The position numbers and the translations under genes are program-made. Shown here piece after piece: positions 3,645 to 12,799 of a DNA stretch of 64,000 nt. Within the stretch, counting starts at the first letter, position 1; the number at the start of each line of letters is the position of its first letter. Origin of the DNA: Gammaproteobacteria bacterium. GTDB taxonomy: Bacteria; Pseudomonadota; Gammaproteobacteria; Natronospirales; REEB76. The stretch covers positions 64,007 through 128,006 of the forward strand of contig DASVOS010000011.1 in assembly GCA_036383255.1 (NCBI GenBank). The letters run 5' to 3'. Under the pieces are notes generated by a model. The model worked only from the letters and a program-made list of their open reading frames with translations, was not told the DNA's origin and ran no database searches.

Positions 3645-3658
3645 TTGACCTAGATCAT
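3645..3658 (+). promoter_or_regulatory. FNR/Anr-like box upstream of usp-cyc2-cyd operon
   Basis: TTGACCTAGATCAT, eight of ten matches to TTGAT-N4-ATCAA. It lies between the divergent Pat-like gene (start 3578) and the UspE-like gene (start 3717). From its position it could drive the whole eight-gene respiratory operon, and possibly Pat as well. E. coli uspE and cydAB are known to respond to oxygen regulators, which agrees with this reading. Confidence 0.6.
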
Positions 3659-3716: not shown

Positions 3717-4664
3717 ATGAGCAAGCAACCCCGGATCATGGTGATCATGGAGGGCAAGCCGCGCCACAGCCCGGCGCTGCTGCGCGCCCTGTCCTTGGCC
3801 ATCCGCATGGGCGCCAGCCTGCACCTGCGCTCTTTCGACTACCTGCGCAGCCTCGAGCACGCGGCGAGCCGCGGTTTCGACCTATCTGCCTACCTGCGGG
3901 GCCGCCGCGCGGAGCTCGAGGAGTTCGCCGGGACTCTCCCCGCCGAAGGCGCCCCGATCGATACCCAGGTCGTCTGGGGCCGGCCGCTGGCCGAGAAGAT
4001 CATCTACGAGGTGCTGGCCCTCGAGCCGGACCTCGTCATCAAGGACGCCCCCGGACACACCGACCCCCGCCACACGCTGCTGGACAGCATCGACTGGCAC
4101 CTCCTCAACGAGTGCCCGGCGCCGCTGATGCTGGTGCGTCCGCGTGCCGCGAGCCTGCCGCGCCGCATCGTCGCGGCGGTGGATCCGCTGGACGAGCATG
4201 GCAAGCCTCACGCGCTCAACGACCGCATCGTGGGCACCGCCGCGGCCCTCGCCGCCCAGTGCGGCGCCGAGCTCGACGTGGTGAATGCGTTCGAATACGT
4301 CCCGGCCGCCGGCGAGTGGGAATATGCCGGCCTGATGCCGGACCTCACCCTCTACGGCGAGCTGCGCAAGGTGCACGCCGAGGGGCTGTACCGGCTCGGC
4401 AAGGACCACGGCGTCCCGCCCGCGCACATGCACATCCTTGACGGCGAGGCCGCCTACTGCGTCACCGGGTTCGCCCGGCAGCACGGTGCCGACCTCGTGG
4501 TGATGGGCAGCATCTACCGCACCGGTCTCAAGCAGCTCTTCCTCGGCAGCACCGCAGAGGGCGTCTTCGACACGTTGCCCTGTGATGTGCTGCTCATCAA
4601 GCCGGACGGGTTCGCCGCCGAGCTGCAGTCCCTGCTCGAGCAGGGCAAGGCCCGGGCCGCCTGA
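3717..4664 (+). CDS. Tandem universal stress protein, UspE-like
   Basis: 315 residues with two UspA-type domains, about 1-145 and 150-310. Length and tandem build match UspE. The second domain ends in MGSIYRTGLKQLFLGSTAEGV, the position of the nucleotide-binding motif G-x2-G-x9-G-S/T. The second glycine is replaced by tyrosine, so ATP binding is uncertain. The first domain carries the KDAPGHTD-type linker seen in UspE relatives. It is the first gene of the operon, only 34 bases before the Cyc2-like gene, and lies 58 bases downstream of an FNR-like box. A role in low-oxygen or redox stress is inferred from family and position. Confidence 0.88.
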   Translation: MSKQPRIMVIMEGKPRHSPALLRALSLAIRMGASLHLRSFDYLRSLEHAASRGFDLSAYLRGRRAELEEFAGTLPAEGAPIDTQVVWGRPLAEKIIYEVLALEPDLVIKDAPGHTDPRHTLLDSIDWHLLNECPAPLMLVRPRAASLPRRIVAAVDPLDEHGKPHALNDRIVGTAAALAAQCGAELDVVNAFEYVPAAGEWEYAGLMPDLTLYGELRKVHAEGLYRLGKDHGVPPAHMHILDGEAAYCVTGFARQHGADLVVMGSIYRTGLKQLFLGSTAEGVFDTLPCDVLLIKPDGFAAELQSLLEQGKARAA

Positions 4665-4698: not shown

Positions 4699-6039
4699 AT
4701 GAACCACTTCGACTTCAGCCGCCTCGGCTTGCGCCTTGCGCTGCTGCTCGCGGCCCTGTCGCTGGCCCCCCAGGCCCTCGCGGTGCCAAGCTTCGCCCGC
4801 CAGACGGGGCTTGCCTGCAACATCTGCCACAGCACGCCCCCGGAGCTTACCTCCTTCGGCAGGCTGTTCAAGCTGAACGGTTACGTGCTCACCGGCATCA
4901 AGCAGATCCAGTCGGGTGAGTCCGGCCAGAACCTCAGTATCAACGAGCTGCCGCCGTTGTCCGCCATGGTGCAGATCGCGGACACGCTCACCAACAAATC
5001 GCAACCCGGCTCGCAGAACGGCAACCTGCAGTTCCCGGCGCAACTCAGCCTGTTCTATGCAGGCGCCATCTCCACCAACATGGGCGCCTTCGCGCAGCTC
5101 ACCTATACCCAGGCTGACGATCACTTCAGCATGGACCTGGCGGATGTGCGCTACGCGGACCATGCCGAGTGGTTCGGGTCCGACACCATCTACGGCATCA
5201 CCGTCAACAACGGTCCCACCATCGAGGACGTATGGAACTCCACCTCTGCCTGGGGGTTCCCCTGGTTCGGTTCCGAGGTGGCCCCGGCACCCTCCGCCGC
5301 GCCGCTTCTGGGCGGCGTGCTGAGCGGGCCGGGCAGCGTGGCCGGCGCCGGTGCCTATGCCTTCTGGGATGACCGCGTCTACGCGCTGTTCAGCCTCTAT
5401 CGCGCCTCACCCACTGGGGCGGCCCAGCCCATCTCGGATGCCGGCGCCATCTCAGGCGTCGCGCCCTACTGGCGGCTCGCCTACCAGTGGAACGGCGGCA
5501 ACCCCCTCGAAGTGGGCCTCTACGGCATGCACGCCTCGGTGGACCAGGGCTTCTCGGGTGCCGGCGCACCGGACCTGAACGACGGCTACACCGACTACGG
5601 TGTGGACGCGCAGTATGAGATTGCCATGGGCGGCAACATGTTGTCGCTGTACGGTACCTACATACACGAGAAGCAGGCGCTCGAGTCCAGCCATGCTGCC
5701 GGTGCCAGCAACCTCGACGATACCCTCAATAGCCTGAACCTGAACGGCCGCTACCATTTCGACTCGACACAGGCTGTGGGTCTCGGCTACTTCTCGACGA
5801 CCGGCACCACCGACTCGCTGCTGTACGCGCCGGCCGACATCTCCGGCTCCGCTACCGGCTCGCCTGACAGCAAAGGCTGGACACTGCAGTACGTCTACTT
5901 GCCGCGCCAGAACGTGCAGCTCGCCGTACAGTACACCCTGTACGACAAGTTCAACGGCGGCAGCAACAACTACGACGGCAGCGGCCGGAACGCCTCCGAC
6001 AACGACACCCTGTTCCTGCTGCTGTGGGTGCTGTGGTGA
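4699..6039 (+). CDS. Cyc2-like outer-membrane monohaem cytochrome-porin fusion
   Basis: 446 residues. A signal peptide (about 1-24, ending PQALA) is followed directly by AVPSFARQTGLACNICH. This matches the motif AxPxFARQTGxxCxxCH described for Cyc2, the outer-membrane Fe(II)-oxidising cytochrome, including one haem site. The next residues, FGRLFKLNGYVL, also fit. The remaining roughly 380 residues alternate polar and aromatic strands and end in tryptophan, as an outer-membrane beta-barrel should. ATG 4699 follows AAAGGGA; an earlier in-frame ATG at 4669 gives no signal peptide. It lies between uspE-like and cydP. Close Cyc2 relatives occur outside iron oxidisers, so extracellular electron uptake is plausible but not proven. 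Confidence 0.72.
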   Translation: MNHFDFSRLGLRLALLLAALSLAPQALAVPSFARQTGLACNICHSTPPELTSFGRLFKLNGYVLTGIKQIQSGESGQNLSINELPPLSAMVQIADTLTNKSQPGSQNGNLQFPAQLSLFYAGAISTNMGAFAQLTYTQADDHFSMDLADVRYADHAEWFGSDTIYGITVNNGPTIEDVWNSTSAWGFPWFGSEVAPAPSAAPLLGGVLSGPGSVAGAGAYAFWDDRVYALFSLYRASPTGAAQPISDAGAISGVAPYWRLAYQWNGGNPLEVGLYGMHASVDQGFSGAGAPDLNDGYTDYGVDAQYEIAMGGNMLSLYGTYIHEKQALESSHAAGASNLDDTLNSLNLNGRYHFDSTQAVGLGYFSTTGTTDSLLYAPADISGSATGSPDSKGWTLQYVYLPRQNVQLAVQYTLYDKFNGGSNNYDGSGRNASDNDTLFLLLWVLW

Positions 6040-6101
6040 TCGCGCACCGCGGCCCGGTTGTGGCGCCTGGTGAGCGACTCCTGCATAAGGAGCTCACCCC
6101 C

Positions 6102-6248
6102 GTGCTCCTCCTCAAACTCGCTGCTATGAGCCTGCTCTGGTACCTGTTCTTCGGCCCCTCCCACACCGTGCGGGTCACGCCGGACAAGGTGGGCACGGCC
6201 GTGTTCGGCGCGCCGGCCGCGCCACCCGCTTCCCCACCCCGGAGTTGA
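6102..6248 (+). CDS. cydP: CydP, small cytochrome bd-associated subunit
   Basis: A 48-residue protein with one N-terminal membrane helix (LLLKLAAMSLLWYLFF), then a short tail HTVRVTPDKVGTAVFG. This is the layout of CydP proteins encoded just before cydA. GTG 6102 was chosen because AAGGAG stands at the right distance; the frame is open back to 6024, inside the end of the Cyc2-like gene, without similarity. The stop is three bases before cydA. It likely binds and stabilises the oxidase in the inner membrane. Confidence 0.72.
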   Translation: MLLLKLAAMSLLWYLFFGPSHTVRVTPDKVGTAVFGAPAAPPASPPRS

Positions 6249-6251
6249 TGC

Positions 6252-7829
6252 ATGGATTCCCTCGATCCGGTCATGCTCTCGCGCCTGCAGTTCGCCCTGA
6301 CGGCGCTCTACCATTTCCTGTTCGTGCCGCTGACCCTCGGCCTCGCCTTCATCCTCGCCATCATGGAGTCGGTGTACGTCATGACCAGCCGGGAGATCTG
6401 GAAGGACATGACCCGCTTCTGGGGCAAGCTGTTCGGCATCAACTTCGCCATGGGCGTCGCCACCGGCATCACCATGGAGTTCCAGTTCGGCACCAACTGG
6501 GCCTACTACTCCCACTACGTGGGCGACATCTTCGGCGTGCCGCTGGCCATCGAGGGCCTGATGGCGTTCTTCCTCGAGTCCACCTTTGTCGGCCTGTTCT
6601 TCTTCGGCTGGGACCGGCTGTCGCGGGTGCAGCACCTCATGGTCACCTGGCTGGTGGCGCTGGGCTCCAACCTCTCGGCGCTGTGGATCCTGATTGCCAA
6701 CGGCTGGATGCAGAACCCCGTGGGCGCGGCCTTCAACTACCGGACCATGCGCATGGAAGTGACCAGCATGGCCGAGGTGATCTTCAACCCGGTGGCCCAG
6801 GCCAAGTTCGTGCACACCGTGAGCGCAGGGTACGTGGTGGGCGCCATGTTCGTGCTCTCCATCAGCGCCTTCTACCTGCTGCGGGGCCGCCACGTGGCGT
6901 TCGCCAAGCGCTCACTGGCGGTGGCCGCCAGCTTCGGCCTCGCGGCCTCCCTCTCGGTGGTGGTGCTGGGCGACGAGAGCGGTTACCTCACGACCCAGGA
7001 CCAGAAGATGAAGCTCGCGGCCATCGAGGCCGAGTGGCATACCGAGCCTGCACCGGCGAGCTTCACGCTGTTCGGCATCCCGGACCAGGCGGCCCACGAG
7101 ACGCGCTACGCGGTGAAGGTGCCCTGGGTGCTGGGCCTCATCGCGACCCGGTCCGCCGACGAGCCGGTGCTGGGCATCGACGACCTGACCAAGCGCTCCC
7201 GTGAGCGCGTGCACGACGGCGTGCTGGCCTACTACGCGCTGCAGGAGCTCAAGGTCCACCCCGAAGATACCGCCGCCAAGGCCACCTTCGACGCATACCA
7301 GAAGGACCTGGGCTATGCCCTGCTATTGACCATGGACGGCGTGGACCCGCTGCGGGCCACCGACGCCGATCTCGACCGGGCCGCCGCGCGCACCGTGCCC
7401 AAGGTCTCCGCCCTCTTCTGGTCGTTCCGCATCATGGTGGGCCTGGGCCTCCTGTTCATCTTCCTGTTCGCGTTCGCGTTCTGGGTCTCGGCCACCCAAC
7501 GCTTCGAGCGCTACCGCTGGTTCCTGCGCCTCGCGTTCTACGCGTTGCCGCTGCCCTGGATCTCCACCGAGCTCGGCTGGGTGGTGGCGGAAGTCGGGCG
7601 CCAGCCCTGGGTCATCGAGGGCGTGCTGCCCACCCAGCTAGCAGCTTCCAGTATTTCAGGTTTGCAGGTGCTGGGAAGCCTCTCGGGATTCGTGCTGTTC
7701 TACTCCGCTCTGGCGGTGGTGGACGCCTTCCTCATGCGCCGCTACATCCTGTTCGGACCGGATGATGTACTGGCCAAGACCATCGTCGCACCCGAAGAAC
7801 GCCGCGCGCTGCGCGCGCAGGAGGCCTGA
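6252..7829 (+). CDS. cydA: Cytochrome bd quinol oxidase subunit I
   Basis: 525 residues. The N-terminus SRLQFALTALYHFLFVPLTLG carries the histidine ligand of haem b595. FVHTVSAGYV carries the histidine of haem b558 and FRIMVGLG its methionine. GRQPW is present. The quinol (Q) loop after DESGY is long and matches the E. coli-type L-subfamily, not the short CIO type. The enzyme oxidises quinol and reduces oxygen to water with high affinity in the inner membrane. Two bases separate it from cydB, and cydX follows, so the oxidase set is complete. Confidence 0.97.
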   Translation: MDSLDPVMLSRLQFALTALYHFLFVPLTLGLAFILAIMESVYVMTSREIWKDMTRFWGKLFGINFAMGVATGITMEFQFGTNWAYYSHYVGDIFGVPLAIEGLMAFFLESTFVGLFFFGWDRLSRVQHLMVTWLVALGSNLSALWILIANGWMQNPVGAAFNYRTMRMEVTSMAEVIFNPVAQAKFVHTVSAGYVVGAMFVLSISAFYLLRGRHVAFAKRSLAVAASFGLAASLSVVVLGDESGYLTTQDQKMKLAAIEAEWHTEPAPASFTLFGIPDQAAHETRYAVKVPWVLGLIATRSADEPVLGIDDLTKRSRERVHDGVLAYYALQELKVHPEDTAAKATFDAYQKDLGYALLLTMDGVDPLRATDADLDRAAARTVPKVSALFWSFRIMVGLGLLFIFLFAFAFWVSATQRFERYRWFLRLAFYALPLPWISTELGWVVAEVGRQPWVIEGVLPTQLAASSISGLQVLGSLSGFVLFYSALAVVDAFLMRRYILFGPDDVLAKTIVAPEERRALRAQEA

Positions 7830-7831
7830 CC

Positions 7832-8965
7832 ATGGACTACGAGACTCTACGCCTCATCTGGTGGCTGTTCCTCACGGTGCTTCTCACCGGCTTCGCCGTC
7901 ATGGACGGCTTCGACCTCGGCGTCGCCGCGCAGCTCCTCTACGTGGCCCGCGACGACCAGGAGCGGCGCGTCACCCTCAACAGCATCGGTCCGGTCTGGG
8001 ACGGCAACCAGGTGTGGTTCATCCTGGGCGGCGGCGCGGCCTTCGCCGCCTTCCCCATGCTCTATGCGGTGGCGTTCTCCGGCTTCTACGCCGCCATGTT
8101 CCTGGTGCTGCTGACCTTCATCGTGCGGCCGGTGGGCTTCGACTTCCGCAGCAAGCTCAACGCCACCGCCTGGCGGCACACTTGGGACCGCCTGCTGAGC
8201 GGAGCCGCCATCGCCGCAGCGCTGCTGTTCGGCGTCGCAGTGGGCAACCTGTTCCTCGGCGTGCCGTTCAGCTTCGACTCCGAGCTGCGCATGAGCTATG
8301 CCGGCGGCCTACTGGACCTCATCAAGCCCTTCCCGCTCCTGTGCGGCGTGGCCTCGCTGGCCATGCTGCTCATGCACGGCGCCGCCTATCTCGGCATCAA
8401 GACCGAGGGCGAGGTGGCGGATCGCGCGCGGCGCGTGCTGCTGGCCGGCTCCGCGGTGCTGGTGGTGGCGCTCATCGTCGGGGGTTTCTGGGTCTCGCGC
8501 ATGGACGGCTACATGATCCAGGGCACGCTCGACCCGAACGGGCCCTCCAACCCGCTGCTCAAGAGCGTCGTCCAAGTACGCGGCGCGTGGCTCGCGAACT
8601 ACAACGCCCACGGCTGGATGATCCTGGCTCCGGTGCTGGCCTACCTCGGCGCCTTCATCGCCGCCGGCAGCGCCGTGGCGCGCAACGAGATCACGGCGTT
8701 CCTGGGCTCGGCCCTCGCCGTCGCCGGCACCATCTTCACCGCCGGCCTCGCGCTGTTCCCGTTCCTGCTGCCCTCGAGCCTCAACCCTTCCCACAGCCTC
8801 ACGATCTGGGACGCCTCCTCCAGCCAGCACACCCTGTTCATCATGGTGGTGGCGGTGGCGATGTTCCTGCCGGTAGTGATCCTCTACACGAGCTGGGTGT
8901 TCCGGGTGCTGCGCGGCAAGGTGACCACGGCCTACGTGGGCCACAACGACCACAACCTCTACTGA
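7832..8965 (+). CDS. cydB: Cytochrome bd quinol oxidase subunit II
   Basis: 377 residues with the start MDYETLRLIWWLFLTVLLTG and FAVMDGFDLG, the family signature. WDGNQVWFILGGG and the late SLTIWDASSSQHTL are also typical CydB blocks. About eight to nine membrane helices are apparent. It pairs with CydA as the second large subunit. It is followed after 17 bases by cydX. Confidence 0.97.
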   Translation: MDYETLRLIWWLFLTVLLTGFAVMDGFDLGVAAQLLYVARDDQERRVTLNSIGPVWDGNQVWFILGGGAAFAAFPMLYAVAFSGFYAAMFLVLLTFIVRPVGFDFRSKLNATAWRHTWDRLLSGAAIAAALLFGVAVGNLFLGVPFSFDSELRMSYAGGLLDLIKPFPLLCGVASLAMLLMHGAAYLGIKTEGEVADRARRVLLAGSAVLVVALIVGGFWVSRMDGYMIQGTLDPNGPSNPLLKSVVQVRGAWLANYNAHGWMILAPVLAYLGAFIAAGSAVARNEITAFLGSALAVAGTIFTAGLALFPFLLPSSLNPSHSLTIWDASSSQHTLFIMVVAVAMFLPVVILYTSWVFRVLRGKVTTAYVGHNDHNLY

Positions 8966-8982: not shown

Positions 8983-9138
8983 ATGTGGTACTTCAGCTGG
9001 ATCCTGGGCGTGCTGTTCGCCTGCTCCTGCGGCATCATCAATGCCATGTGGGTGGAGATGCGCCTCGCCGGAGACCACGGCGACGGCCAGCCTGTCCCCG
9101 CGCAGCCGCGCAAGCGCACGCCGGCCGGCACAGCCTGA
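8983..9138 (+). CDS. cydX: CydX/YbgT small oxidase subunit
   Basis: 51 residues starting MWYFSWILGVLFACSCGIIN, nearly identical in pattern to E. coli CydX (MWYFAWILG...). One membrane helix, then a basic proline-rich tail. It is needed for stable haem centres in cytochrome bd. A good AAGGAGA ribosome site precedes it. The stop overlaps the next start by one base (TGATG). Confidence 0.93.
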   Translation: MWYFSWILGVLFACSCGIINAMWVEMRLAGDHGDGQPVPAQPRKRTPAGTA

Positions 9139-9524
9139 TGCTGCTGGCGGCGGCGCTCTATTTCGCGCTGGTGTTCGCGGCAGGCTTCGTCTTGGGTGTA
9201 CTGCGTACCCTGTGGCTGGCTCCCCGTGTCGGCGGACGGCGTGCCGAGCTCCTGGAGATGCCGCTGATGCTCGGCGTGTCGGCGTTGGCCGCCGCCGCGC
9301 TCGCGCGCGGCCCTGCGGCGGAGCTGGTGATGTCCGGGCGCCTTCTCATGGGCGGCTTGGCTCTGCTCATGCTGCTCGGTGCCGAACTCCTGGTGGTCAA
9401 GCTCATGCGGGGCATGAGTCTCAGCCGCTACTTCGCCGGGCGCGACCCCGTCGCGCTGGCCGCCTATCTCGTCGCGCTGCTCGGATTCGCGCTCATGCCG
9501 GCCGTTGCCGGTGCCGCCACCTGA
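9138..9524 (+). CDS. Unknown four-helix membrane protein in cyd operon
   Basis: 128 residues, mostly hydrophobic, with about four predicted helices (for example YFALVFAAGFVLGVL and LLMGGLALLMLLGAELL). I do not recognise the family. It occupies the slot where E. coli has YbgE, but I see no clear similarity. Translational coupling to cydX by TGATG overlap makes a link to the oxidase likely. The frame upstream is open through cydX; ATG 9138 is the sensible start. Confidence 0.75.
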   Translation: MLLAAALYFALVFAAGFVLGVLRTLWLAPRVGGRRAELLEMPLMLGVSALAAAALARGPAAELVMSGRLLMGGLALLMLLGAELLVVKLMRGMSLSRYFAGRDPVALAAYLVALLGFALMPAVAGAAT

Positions 9525-9532
9525 GGCGCTCC

Positions 9533-10120
9533 ATGGACGCCGGCATACATACGCTCTCGGAACGTATCCGTCGCCTGGAAGAGGAGATCGAGACCGAGAT
9601 CAGGCAGCGGCGGGTGGCGCTGCAGGCGGATTTCGAGGGCCGCAAGATCCACTTCGAGGAAGAGGTGCTGGCGGCCCAGCGCCGGATGAAGCAAGGCCTG
9701 CTGCATTACCTGAGCGAGGCTCCGCCATCCTTCGTACTGACCGCGCCCCTCATCTATGCCGGCATCGTGCCGCTCGCGGCGCTGGACCTGTTCCTCAGCC
9801 TGTACCAGGCGGTGTGCTTCCCGGTCTACGGCATCCCCAAGGTGCGGCGCCGCGATTGCTTCGTCTTCGACCGCGCGCATCTCGCCTATCTCAACATCAT
9901 CGAGAAGTTCAACTGCGCCTACTGCTCCTACGGTAGCGGCGTGTCCGCCTACTTGCGCGAGATCATCGGCCGCACCGAGCAGTACTGGTGTCCCATCAAG
10001 CACGCGCGGCGCGCGCTGCACGCCCACCCCTACTACCGCGGGTTCACGGACTTCGGCGATGCCGAGGCGTTCCGCCGCGAACTCGCGCAGCTCCGCCGCG
10101 ACCTTGAGAAGCGGACGTGA
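9533..10120 (+). CDS. Unknown coiled-coil protein closing the cyd operon
   Basis: 195 residues. Residues about 5-50 are charged and heptad-like (LSERIRRLEEEIETEIRQR), followed by a hydrophobic stretch (APLIYAGIVPLAALDLFLSL) and a conserved-looking segment with NCAYCSYGSG. The two cysteines plus C in QYWCPIKHARR could bind metal. I do not recognise the family. It starts eight bases after the preceding membrane-protein gene and ends at a strong hairpin, so it is the last gene of the operon. A membrane-associated role alongside the oxidase is a guess from context. Confidence 0.75.
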   Translation: MDAGIHTLSERIRRLEEEIETEIRQRRVALQADFEGRKIHFEEEVLAAQRRMKQGLLHYLSEAPPSFVLTAPLIYAGIVPLAALDLFLSLYQAVCFPVYGIPKVRRRDCFVFDRAHLAYLNIIEKFNCAYCSYGSGVSAYLREIIGRTEQYWCPIKHARRALHAHPYYRGFTDFGDAEAFRRELAQLRRDLEKRT

Positions 10121-11316: not shown

Positions 11317-11330
11317 ATGATCCAGGTCAA
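11317..11330 (-). promoter_or_regulatory. FNR/Anr-like box between porin and nirK
   Basis: Read on the minus strand it is TTGACCTGGATCAT, differing by one base from the box at 3645. It lies 89 bases from the porin start and 62 bases from the nirK start, so it could serve either direction. nirK genes are commonly under FNR/Dnr/NNR-type control. Confidence 0.6.
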
Positions 11331-11392
11331 GGCGCCCGCGGGCATGGGACGGCATCATGGCCCCACTCAAGAACACCGTTGGGAGCAATGCC

Positions 11393-12799
11393 ATGAGAAC
11401 CTTCCGTCCGGCCGCTGCCTGGGGCGCCGCCCTGCTGGGCCTGTCCCTGCTGGCCGCCGCGCCCCTGGTGCAGGCCGCCAGCAGCAACCTGCCCAAGCCG
11501 TCGGTCACCTACCATGCCGACGTCCGCTTCACCTTCCGCACCAACATCGGCCCCAAGGGCATGACCTTCGTCGGCGTCGGCAACGGCATCGACGGCGTGG
11601 ACAATCCCACGTTGCAGGTCCCCCAGGGCGCCGTGGTGCAGATCACGCTGATCGACGGCGATGGGGCCGAGCACAACATCGCGGTACCGGACTTCGGCGC
11701 CTCCTCCGACCACGTGGTGGCGAAGGACGCCAGCACCGTGATCGTGTTCCGTGCCGACAAGAGCGGCAGCTTCGAGTACTTCTGCGAACTGCCCGGCCAC
11801 CGCCAGGCCGGCATGGTGGGCAAGCTGGTGGTGGGCACGCCCGCCGCCGCTCCGCAGGCAGAGGCCGCGGACATCACCCTCGATCCCGCCACCGTGCCCG
11901 CGCCCATCGGCAAGCGCGATCCGCAGAAGGTGCGCGTGGATCTCACCACCGTCGAGGTCCGCGGCCGACTCGCGGACGGCACCACCTACAACTTCTGGAC
12001 CTTCAACGGCAAGGTGCCGGGCCCCATGCTGCGCGTCCGCGAAGGCGACACCGTGGAGCTGCACCTCAAGAACGAGGCCTCCAGCCGCATGATCCACTCG
12101 GTGGACCTGCACGCGGTGCTCGGCCCCGGCGGCGGCGCCGCGGTGCTGCAGGTGCCCCCCGGCCAGGAGAAGTCCATCACGTTCAAGGCCGCGCTGCCGG
12201 GTCTCTACGTGTACCACTGCGCCACCCCCATGGTCGCCAACCACATCGCCAACGGCATGTACGGCATGATCCTGGTGGAACCGGCCGCGGGCCTGCCCAA
12301 GGTGGACCGTGAGTTCTACGTTATGCAGGGCGAGATCTACACCACCGGCGCCTTCGGCAAGCACGGCGACCAGGAGTTCGACGTGCAGAAGCTGCTGGAC
12401 GAGAAGCCCGAGTACTTCGTGCTCAACGGCGCGGTCGGCGCGCTCACCAAGTACCACCCGCTGCACTCGAAGGTGGGTGACACCGTGCGCGTCTACTTCG
12501 GCGTGGGCGGCCCGAACTTCACGTCTTCCTTCCACGTGATCGGCGAGATCTTCGACCATGTGTACAATATGGCCTCGCTGGTGTCTCCGCCGACCGACGA
12601 CGTGCAGACCGTGAGCGTGCCGCCGGGCGGCGCCACCGTGGTGGACTTCCGCACCCAGGTGCCGGGCCGCTACATGCTGGTGGACCACGCCCTCTCGCGC
12701 ATGGAGCGCGGGCTCATGGGCTTCCTGATGGTGGACGGCCAGGACAACCCGGACCTCTACCACACCGACTACCAGCCGGATCCCCATTCCGGCCATTGA
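11393..12799 (+). CDS. nirK: Copper nitrite reductase with extra N-terminal cupredoxin
   Basis: 468 residues, about 100 longer than ordinary NirK. A signal peptide is followed by a cupredoxin (about 35-160) with a complete type 1 copper set ending CELPGHRQAGM. Then come the two NirK domains (about 170-455). HSVDLHAVLGPGGGAA holds the catalytic aspartate and a type 2 copper histidine. LYVYHCATPMVANHIANGMYG holds the type 1 cysteine and more ligands. SFHVIGEIFDHVY holds the last type 2 histidine. The loops match the AniA-like class. It reduces nitrite to NO in the periplasm. ATG 11393 follows GGGAG and gives a clean signal peptide. Confidence 0.93.
   Translation: MRTFRPAAAWGAALLGLSLLAAAPLVQAASSNLPKPSVTYHADVRFTFRTNIGPKGMTFVGVGNGIDGVDNPTLQVPQGAVVQITLIDGDGAEHNIAVPDFGASSDHVVAKDASTVIVFRADKSGSFEYFCELPGHRQAGMVGKLVVGTPAAAPQAEAADITLDPATVPAPIGKRDPQKVRVDLTTVEVRGRLADGTTYNFWTFNGKVPGPMLRVREGDTVELHLKNEASSRMIHSVDLHAVLGPGGGAAVLQVPPGQEKSITFKAALPGLYVYHCATPMVANHIANGMYGMILVEPAAGLPKVDREFYVMQGEIYTTGAFGKHGDQEFDVQKLLDEKPEYFVLNGAVGALTKYHPLHSKVGDTVRVYFGVGGPNFTSSFHVIGEIFDHVYNMASLVSPPTDDVQTVSVPPGGATVVDFRTQVPGRYMLVDHALSRMERGLMGFLMVDGQDNPDLYHTDYQPDPHSGH

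Follow-up and report, generated by a model that had tools for sequence, protein, structure and literature searches.

The gene at positions 4699-6039 (+) of the analysed 64-kb stretch of DNA (the window) encodes a Cyc2-type fused monohaem cytochrome-porin, an assignment well supported by the published sequence definition of this family, and follows an FNR-type box in what is likely a single operon with the genes of a universal stress protein and a cytochrome bd oxidase. We give about even odds (ca. 0.5) to the overall reading that this operon provides a Cyc2 conduit, induced by oxygen shortage, which feeds electrons to periplasmic carriers and from there to a copper nitrite reductase or an oxidase. 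What is novel is that cyc2 stands in a low-oxygen regulatory setting within a clade devoid of RuBisCO; a non-exhaustive search of the literature revealed no description of an FNR-controlled cyc2 or of a cyc2-cyd operon.

The open reading frame is a real gene, starting with ATG behind an RBS-like AAAAAGGGA and displaying GC fractions of 0.59/0.48/0.88 at the three codon positions. Its product of 446 amino acids is composed of a signal peptide read from the sequence (MNHFDFSRLGLRLALLLAALSLAPQALA, 4699-4782, +), which precedes the conserved A28-V-P30, the segment AVPSFARQTGLACNICH continuing to PEL, a porin-like body and an outer-membrane C-terminal signature. The core of the cytochrome domain (AVPSFARQTGLACNICHSTPPEL, 4780-4848, +) extends from A28 to L50, and the only two cysteines of the protein, C40 and C43, both belong to its single CxxCH (residues 40-44). 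No Pfam or NCBIfam family matched the protein. Cyc2 proteins have been defined by Keffer et al. on the basis of AXPXFAR[Q/K][T/Y] preceding CXXCH, PXL four residues downstream, the haem motif and a minimum length of 365 residues (PMC8406198). The window protein contains AVPSFARQT-GLA-CNICH, as originally predicted for its mature N-terminus, one CxxCH and P48-E-L50, whose proline is the fourth residue after H44; a six-frame search of the window finds the pattern P.FAR[QK][TY] at this place only. The spacing between the motif and CXXCH was worded as five residues by the same authors (PMC8406198), while three residues separate T36 from C40 in the window protein and in nearly all homologues listed. 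Invariant in 32 homologues are A28, P30, R34, Q35, C40, C43, H44, P48 and L50, as well as acidic residues of the body including D177, D299, D303 and E324.

A full-length homologue in a rus-type setting is provided by a genome of the same class (G263), which emerged when a rusticyanin anchor search was carried out in a sample of the phylum, without a match above cut-off, and then in the class. Its cyc2 (locus L075) is accompanied by coxB, coxA, ctaA, ctaB and the gene of a rusticyanin-like protein, i.e. by a rus-type iron-oxidation operon, and the encoded protein aligns with the window protein over the full length at ca. 38-40% identity. In a tree containing no named reference Cyc2, both proteins fall into one large group apart from five distant homologues. 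The original prediction of a Cyc2-like cytochrome-porin is supported by the sequence criteria, the full-length homology to a rus-operon Cyc2 and the conserved outer-membrane C-terminus. The nearest known relatives are the Cyc2 family proteins of clusters 1-3, among them Acidithiobacillus ferrooxidans Cyc2, Mariprofundus PV-1 Cyc2 and Leptospirillum Cyt572 (McAllister 2020, Keffer 2021), which share with the window protein AXPXFAR[Q/K][T/Y], CXXCH and PXL, one haem motif, a signal peptide, more than 400 residues, the porin-like body and the outer-membrane C-terminus. In contrast to these, the window gene belongs to an operon of usp and cydPABX headed by an FNR-type box, and its host lacks RuBisCO, cbb3 oxidase and rusticyanin. 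Characterized Cyc2 proteins are Fe(II) oxidases (PMC8406198, PMC7029218); the role of the many cyc2 genes in organisms not known to oxidize iron is a stated open question (PMC8406198), and expression of cyc2 need not follow iron oxidation even in known iron oxidizers (PMC12442390). Horizontal transfer of Cyc2 genes is on record (PMC12442345). A homologue on a plasmid annotated as Acidithiobacillus ferrooxidans (CP084173.1, 49695-50942) has the same score and span as the copy on Acidiphilium cryptum pACRY03 and is possibly a shared mobile gene or part of a mis-assigned plasmid. No relatives of the window Cyc2 were found to be encoded on viral contigs.

The N-terminal cytochrome would plug a porin-like β-barrel, as suggested by family membership and the C-terminus, upon which we rely because the AlphaFold models were poor. 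Among 35 homologues, 33 have F, W or Y as the last residue, and positions −3, −7 and −9 are mostly hydrophobic. A terminal aromatic residue combined with hydrophobic residues at −3/−7/−9 is the usual signature of outer-membrane barrels. The AlphaFold models reached pLDDT values of 38.7 (3-sequence alignment) and 30.7 (1 sequence), owing to the shallow alignment of few sequences, and placed strands in the C-terminal half. Foldseek matched the model best to porins including OprO at a TM-score of ca. 0.35, a result untrustworthy at such low model confidence. A strand-alternation scan was marginal (14 strands at one threshold, where shuffled sequences gave 9.4 with an sd of 2.2, and less at others), and a profile search of solved structures with Cyc2 gave no match up to E 10, the best single-sequence match having an E value of 0.1. 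The predicted outer-membrane barrel is favoured by the conserved C-terminus and the family homology, but was not confirmed by AlphaFold (pLDDT 39).

All genes of the putative operon are on the forward strand. The first one encodes a universal stress protein (3717-4664, +; PF00582 109 bits), for which the label UspE-like is fair at an NF008380 score of 152 bits, below the 227-bit cut-off. Cyc2 is followed by cydP for a small bd subunit (6036-6248, +; NF045611 40.7 bits, cut-off 29.6), cydA for subunit I of cytochrome bd in a long form of 525 residues (6252-7829, +; PF01654 579 bits), cydB for subunit II (7832-8965, +; TIGR00203 418 bits) and cydX (8983-9138, +; TIGR02106 55.6 bits). Two genes without a Pfam family complete the series: orfG for a small hydrophobic protein (9138-9524, +), overlapping cydX by 1 bp, and orfH for a conserved Cys-containing protein (9533-10120, +). 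This order of cydP-cydA-cydB-cydX and two unknown genes had been predicted and is borne out by the Pfam and NCBIfam matches, and the predicted 34-base gap between usp and cyc2 is exact. If cydP begins with the GTG at 6036, its start codon shares bases with the cyc2 stop codon (GTGA); with this start assumed, the intergenic gaps from usp to orfH amount to 34, −4, 3, 2, 17, −1 and 8 bases. Because of these short gaps and overlaps, usp-cyc2-cydP-cydA-cydB-cydX-orfG-orfH likely form one operon. The orfH product bears CAYC and YWCPIKH motifs, and its homologues, annotated as hypothetical (45-53% identity), are located on plasmids of Polymorphobacter, Paraburkholderia and Sphingomonas.

The operon is headed by an FNR/ANR-type box (TTGACCTAGATCAT, 3645-3658) 58 bp ahead of the usp start, to which FNR would bind. 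With a matrix built from the boxes upstream of cyc2 in other genomes, the window being left out, this box ranks first in the 64 kb, and none as good was found in 20 shuffles. Compared to the plain consensus it has mismatches at 2 of 10 positions, a quality for which the window holds 21 sites vs 6.6 expected. The second rank is occupied by a box (ATGATCCAGGTCAA, 11317-11330) upstream of nirK, and the third by a box (874-887) upstream of a CBS-domain-like gene (354-839, −), which comes after an acyl-CoA synthetase/acetyltransferase-like gene divergent from usp. In the relatives, where a box was defined as TTGAT-N4-ATCAA with at most 1 mismatch, 8/13 upstream regions of cyc2 from the same family contain one (0.10 expected in shuffles), and so do 7/23 elsewhere in the class (0.27 expected). 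The excess before cyc2 over other genes of the same loci corresponds to a Fisher p value of 1.5e-8, computed from related and therefore not independent sequences. Boxes of this quality are absent before the rus-type copy of L075 and before the distant homologues; the lack of an FNR box sets L075 apart from the window operon. The host itself encodes an FNR (244 bits, cut-off 228) with hemN adjoining, 22 kb upstream along the same contig; a good box also precedes this hemN (the hemN-fnr pair of L132/L133), and three more are situated near L133 936-3031. The type of the box alone cannot separate FNR, DNR and other family members. Genes such as usp, cyd, hemN and nir are typical members of the low-oxygen FNR/ANR regulon of Proteobacteria, with which the window operon shares both the type of box and such member genes; unlike the regulons known to us, none of which includes a cyc2, it contains this gene. 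The low-oxygen context originally proposed for the gene is supported and strengthened by the boxes and the fnr/hemN neighbours.

Matches to cyc2 were detected in 44/274 genomes of the class sample and in 10 of 11 further genomes from the family of the host. Apart from the window genome, only G278 and G283 have the long CydA among the members of the family (the remaining family CydA matches are distant, with ca. 40% identity over the first 310 residues), and in all three genomes cyc2 belongs to the same cluster as this CydA, in two gene orders and with two cyc2 subtypes. In G278 and G283 the order is usp, cydP (G283), cydA-cydB-cydX, hemN, fnr, cyc2, pseudoazurin, cbpA and cbpM. The cyd linkage of cyc2 is thus conserved, on a limited scale, in the family genomes with this type of CydA (3/3); the inspected loci from beyond the family did not show it. 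In the tree, the window cyc2 is placed with L002, away from the family copies of the G278/G283 group (99/97), and the AU test rejects its grouping with the family copies including G278 and G283 (p = 0.0135). The window gene is of a different subtype from these copies, and the two subtypes therefore probably arrived beside the cyd genes independently. Of the 10 family genomes that have a homologue besides the window genome, 8 carry fnr and/or hemN near cyc2, as does L066; fnr is likewise found near cyc2 in L067, L074 and L082. Pseudoazurin is encoded directly downstream of cyc2 in four family genomes (G277, G278, G280 and G283). A ccm cluster adjoins cyc2 in L066, as confirmed, and in L056, as judged by shared families. 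Genes for c-type cytochromes flank cyc2 in L056, L058, L061 and L065 and on plasmids of Caballeronia, Acidiphilium, Methylocystis and Ideonella, the Caballeronia copy also having a HiPIP neighbour. L056 (G274) and L061 (G040) each contain two different cyc2 copies ca. 5 kb apart, one of which has genes for c-type cytochromes and a CtaG-like protein next to it; in G274 FNR-type boxes occur at both copies. L002, the closest tree neighbour of the window cyc2, has neither an FNR box nor redox neighbours.

A candidate electron sink is encoded in the window by nirK (11357-12799, +; TIGR02376 352 bits, cut-off 296), a copper nitrite reductase with an extra N-terminal cupredoxin domain (Cupredoxin_1 at 85-159) and the only NirK above cut-off in the host genome. 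The same genome yielded no match for pseudoazurin, none for rusticyanin up to E 1e-6, no CcoN of a cbb3 oxidase and, beyond its two haem-copper oxidases (534 and 485 bits), no COX1-family matches comparable to the weaker NorB-like ones of the relatives. The two oxidases are presumably of the aa3 type according to score and length. RuBisCO (PF00016) is absent from the host and from every family genome searched, and with RuBisCO as the yardstick of carbon fixation the host does not qualify as a chemolithoautotrophic iron oxidizer. The rest of the window, as sampled, reflects ordinary heterotrophic metabolism, e.g. methylmalonyl-CoA mutase and peptidases.

Known systems offer partial parallels. 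In the rus operon (cyc2-cyc1-cup-coxBACD-...-rus; PMC10654088) cyc2 is likewise co-operonic with a terminal oxidase, which there is a cytochrome c oxidase capable of accepting Cyc2 electrons, whereas that of the window is a quinol oxidase; moreover, the window locus lacks cyc1, cup and rus and has usp and cydPABX as neighbours instead. Ca. Siderophilus nitratireducens, a nitrate-reducing iron oxidizer with a cluster 3 Cyc2 (PMC10993476), also has a gammaproteobacterial Cyc2 and a nitrogen-oxide reductase that could serve as the sink. It possesses cbb3 and RuBisCO but neither cydAB nor nirK, and the host of the window shows the opposite in all four cases.

On this basis we propose the following scenario. 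At low oxygen, FNR or an FNR-like regulator would act on the 3645-3658 box and activate usp-cyc2-cydPABX-orfGH as one transcript, so that Cyc2 would be produced under these conditions. A small external reductant, probably Fe(II), would enter the pore and reduce the haem. A cupredoxin or c-type cytochrome of the periplasm might then take over the electron and hand it on either to an aa3-type oxidase or to the copper nitrite reductase, whose gene lies 5 kb downstream. Cytochrome bd would be a co-regulated partner, present on the same transcript because both serve oxygen shortage, which removes oxygen and oxidizes quinol derived from organic substrates; the electrons of Cyc2 would not end there. 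The sequence data establish the identity of the gene by the family criteria, the layout of the operon, the pattern of boxes, the neighbours and the gene content, whereas the barrel fold, FNR binding, Fe(II) as donor, the carrier, the sink and the direction of flow are inferred. The scenario is favoured by the relatives' cyc2 genes beside pseudoazurin, ccm, c-type cytochromes and hemN/fnr; against it count the lack of pseudoazurin and of a recognized Cyc2-to-NirK carrier in the host, the absence of RuBisCO and rusticyanin, the low-confidence structure, the two mismatches of the box and the boxless L002.

The original prediction had instead envisaged electron uptake across the outer membrane with cytochrome bd as the terminal acceptor, for which speak the common operon, the possible translational coupling and the clustering of cyc2 with the long CydA in 3/3 family genomes having it. 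Cytochrome bd, however, is fed by quinol rather than by c-type cytochromes, and a redox potential of +208 mV sits above the quinone pool. This value was reported for PV-1 Cyc2 (PMC8406198). A haem at ca. +0.2 V would require reverse electron transport through bc1 for the reduction of ubiquinone; spending quinol gained in this way at bd would be a waste. Since downhill quinone reduction is precluded at such a potential, direct electron flow from Cyc2 to bd was judged unlikely on redox grounds. Relatives devoid of this bd, moreover, keep cyc2 with fnr/hemN/pseudoazurin. We thus consider the bd-sink proposal unsupported and highly improbable, and the link between cyc2 and the cyd genes more likely to be one of regulation. 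Because bd needs quinol and the potential of Cyc2 is too high, the electron would probably be delivered to a periplasmic carrier and then to NirK or a cytochrome c oxidase.

A different purpose is conceivable for the same protein: Cyc2 might be an auxiliary of an organotroph that removes external Fe(II) or another reductant at low oxygen for detoxification or redox balance and not for energy. The lack of RuBisCO in any family genome searched, the otherwise heterotrophic genes of the sampled window (methylmalonyl-CoA mutase, peptidases) and the operon shared with a stress protein and an oxygen-scavenging oxidase agree with it, but nothing points directly to a toxic substrate and the pseudoazurin and ccm linkage in relatives fits a respiratory role at least equally, which leaves it a somewhat unlikely alternative. 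Still more doubtful, in our view, is the reading that a roaming cyc2 landed in a low-oxygen operon by accident and shares no function with it. It would account for a gene order unlike that of the relatives and for the AU rejection (p = 0.0135), and horizontal transfer of Cyc2 has been described (PMC12442345), yet two cyc2 subtypes have come to neighbour the same usp-cyd cluster, and cyc2 is preceded by FNR boxes even where cyd is absent. The direction of electron flow cannot be given by sequence, and FNR-type induction is typical of the use of alternative acceptors, so that, during oxygen shortage, the conduit might also carry electrons from cytochromes of the periplasm out to external acceptors. 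We regard this outward route as very unlikely, as the characterized Cyc2 proteins are Fe(II) oxidases (PMC8406198, PMC7029218) and a pore with only one haem behind it is better matched to a small donor in solution than to a solid acceptor, as argued previously (PMC8406198).

Returning to the proposed conduit to periplasmic carriers, we tentatively suggest, with the odds rather against it, that a non-autotrophic clade of Gammaproteobacteria uses Cyc2 as an FNR-switched accessory port, in which Fe(II) oxidized at the outer membrane would deliver electrons via cupredoxins or c-type cytochromes to nitrite or oxygen and thereby support an organotroph at low oxygen. If true, heterotrophs would oxidize Fe(II) biologically as part of their ordinary low-oxygen regulon. 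The recurrent FNR box together with the fnr, hemN, pseudoazurin, ccm and cydAB neighbours offers a testable answer, namely oxygen limitation, to the question of when cyc2 is used. Whether heterotrophic denitrifiers oxidize Fe(II) enzymatically or only through the abiotic reaction with nitrite is disputed, and an inducible Cyc2 near nirK would be a concrete candidate for the enzyme responsible.
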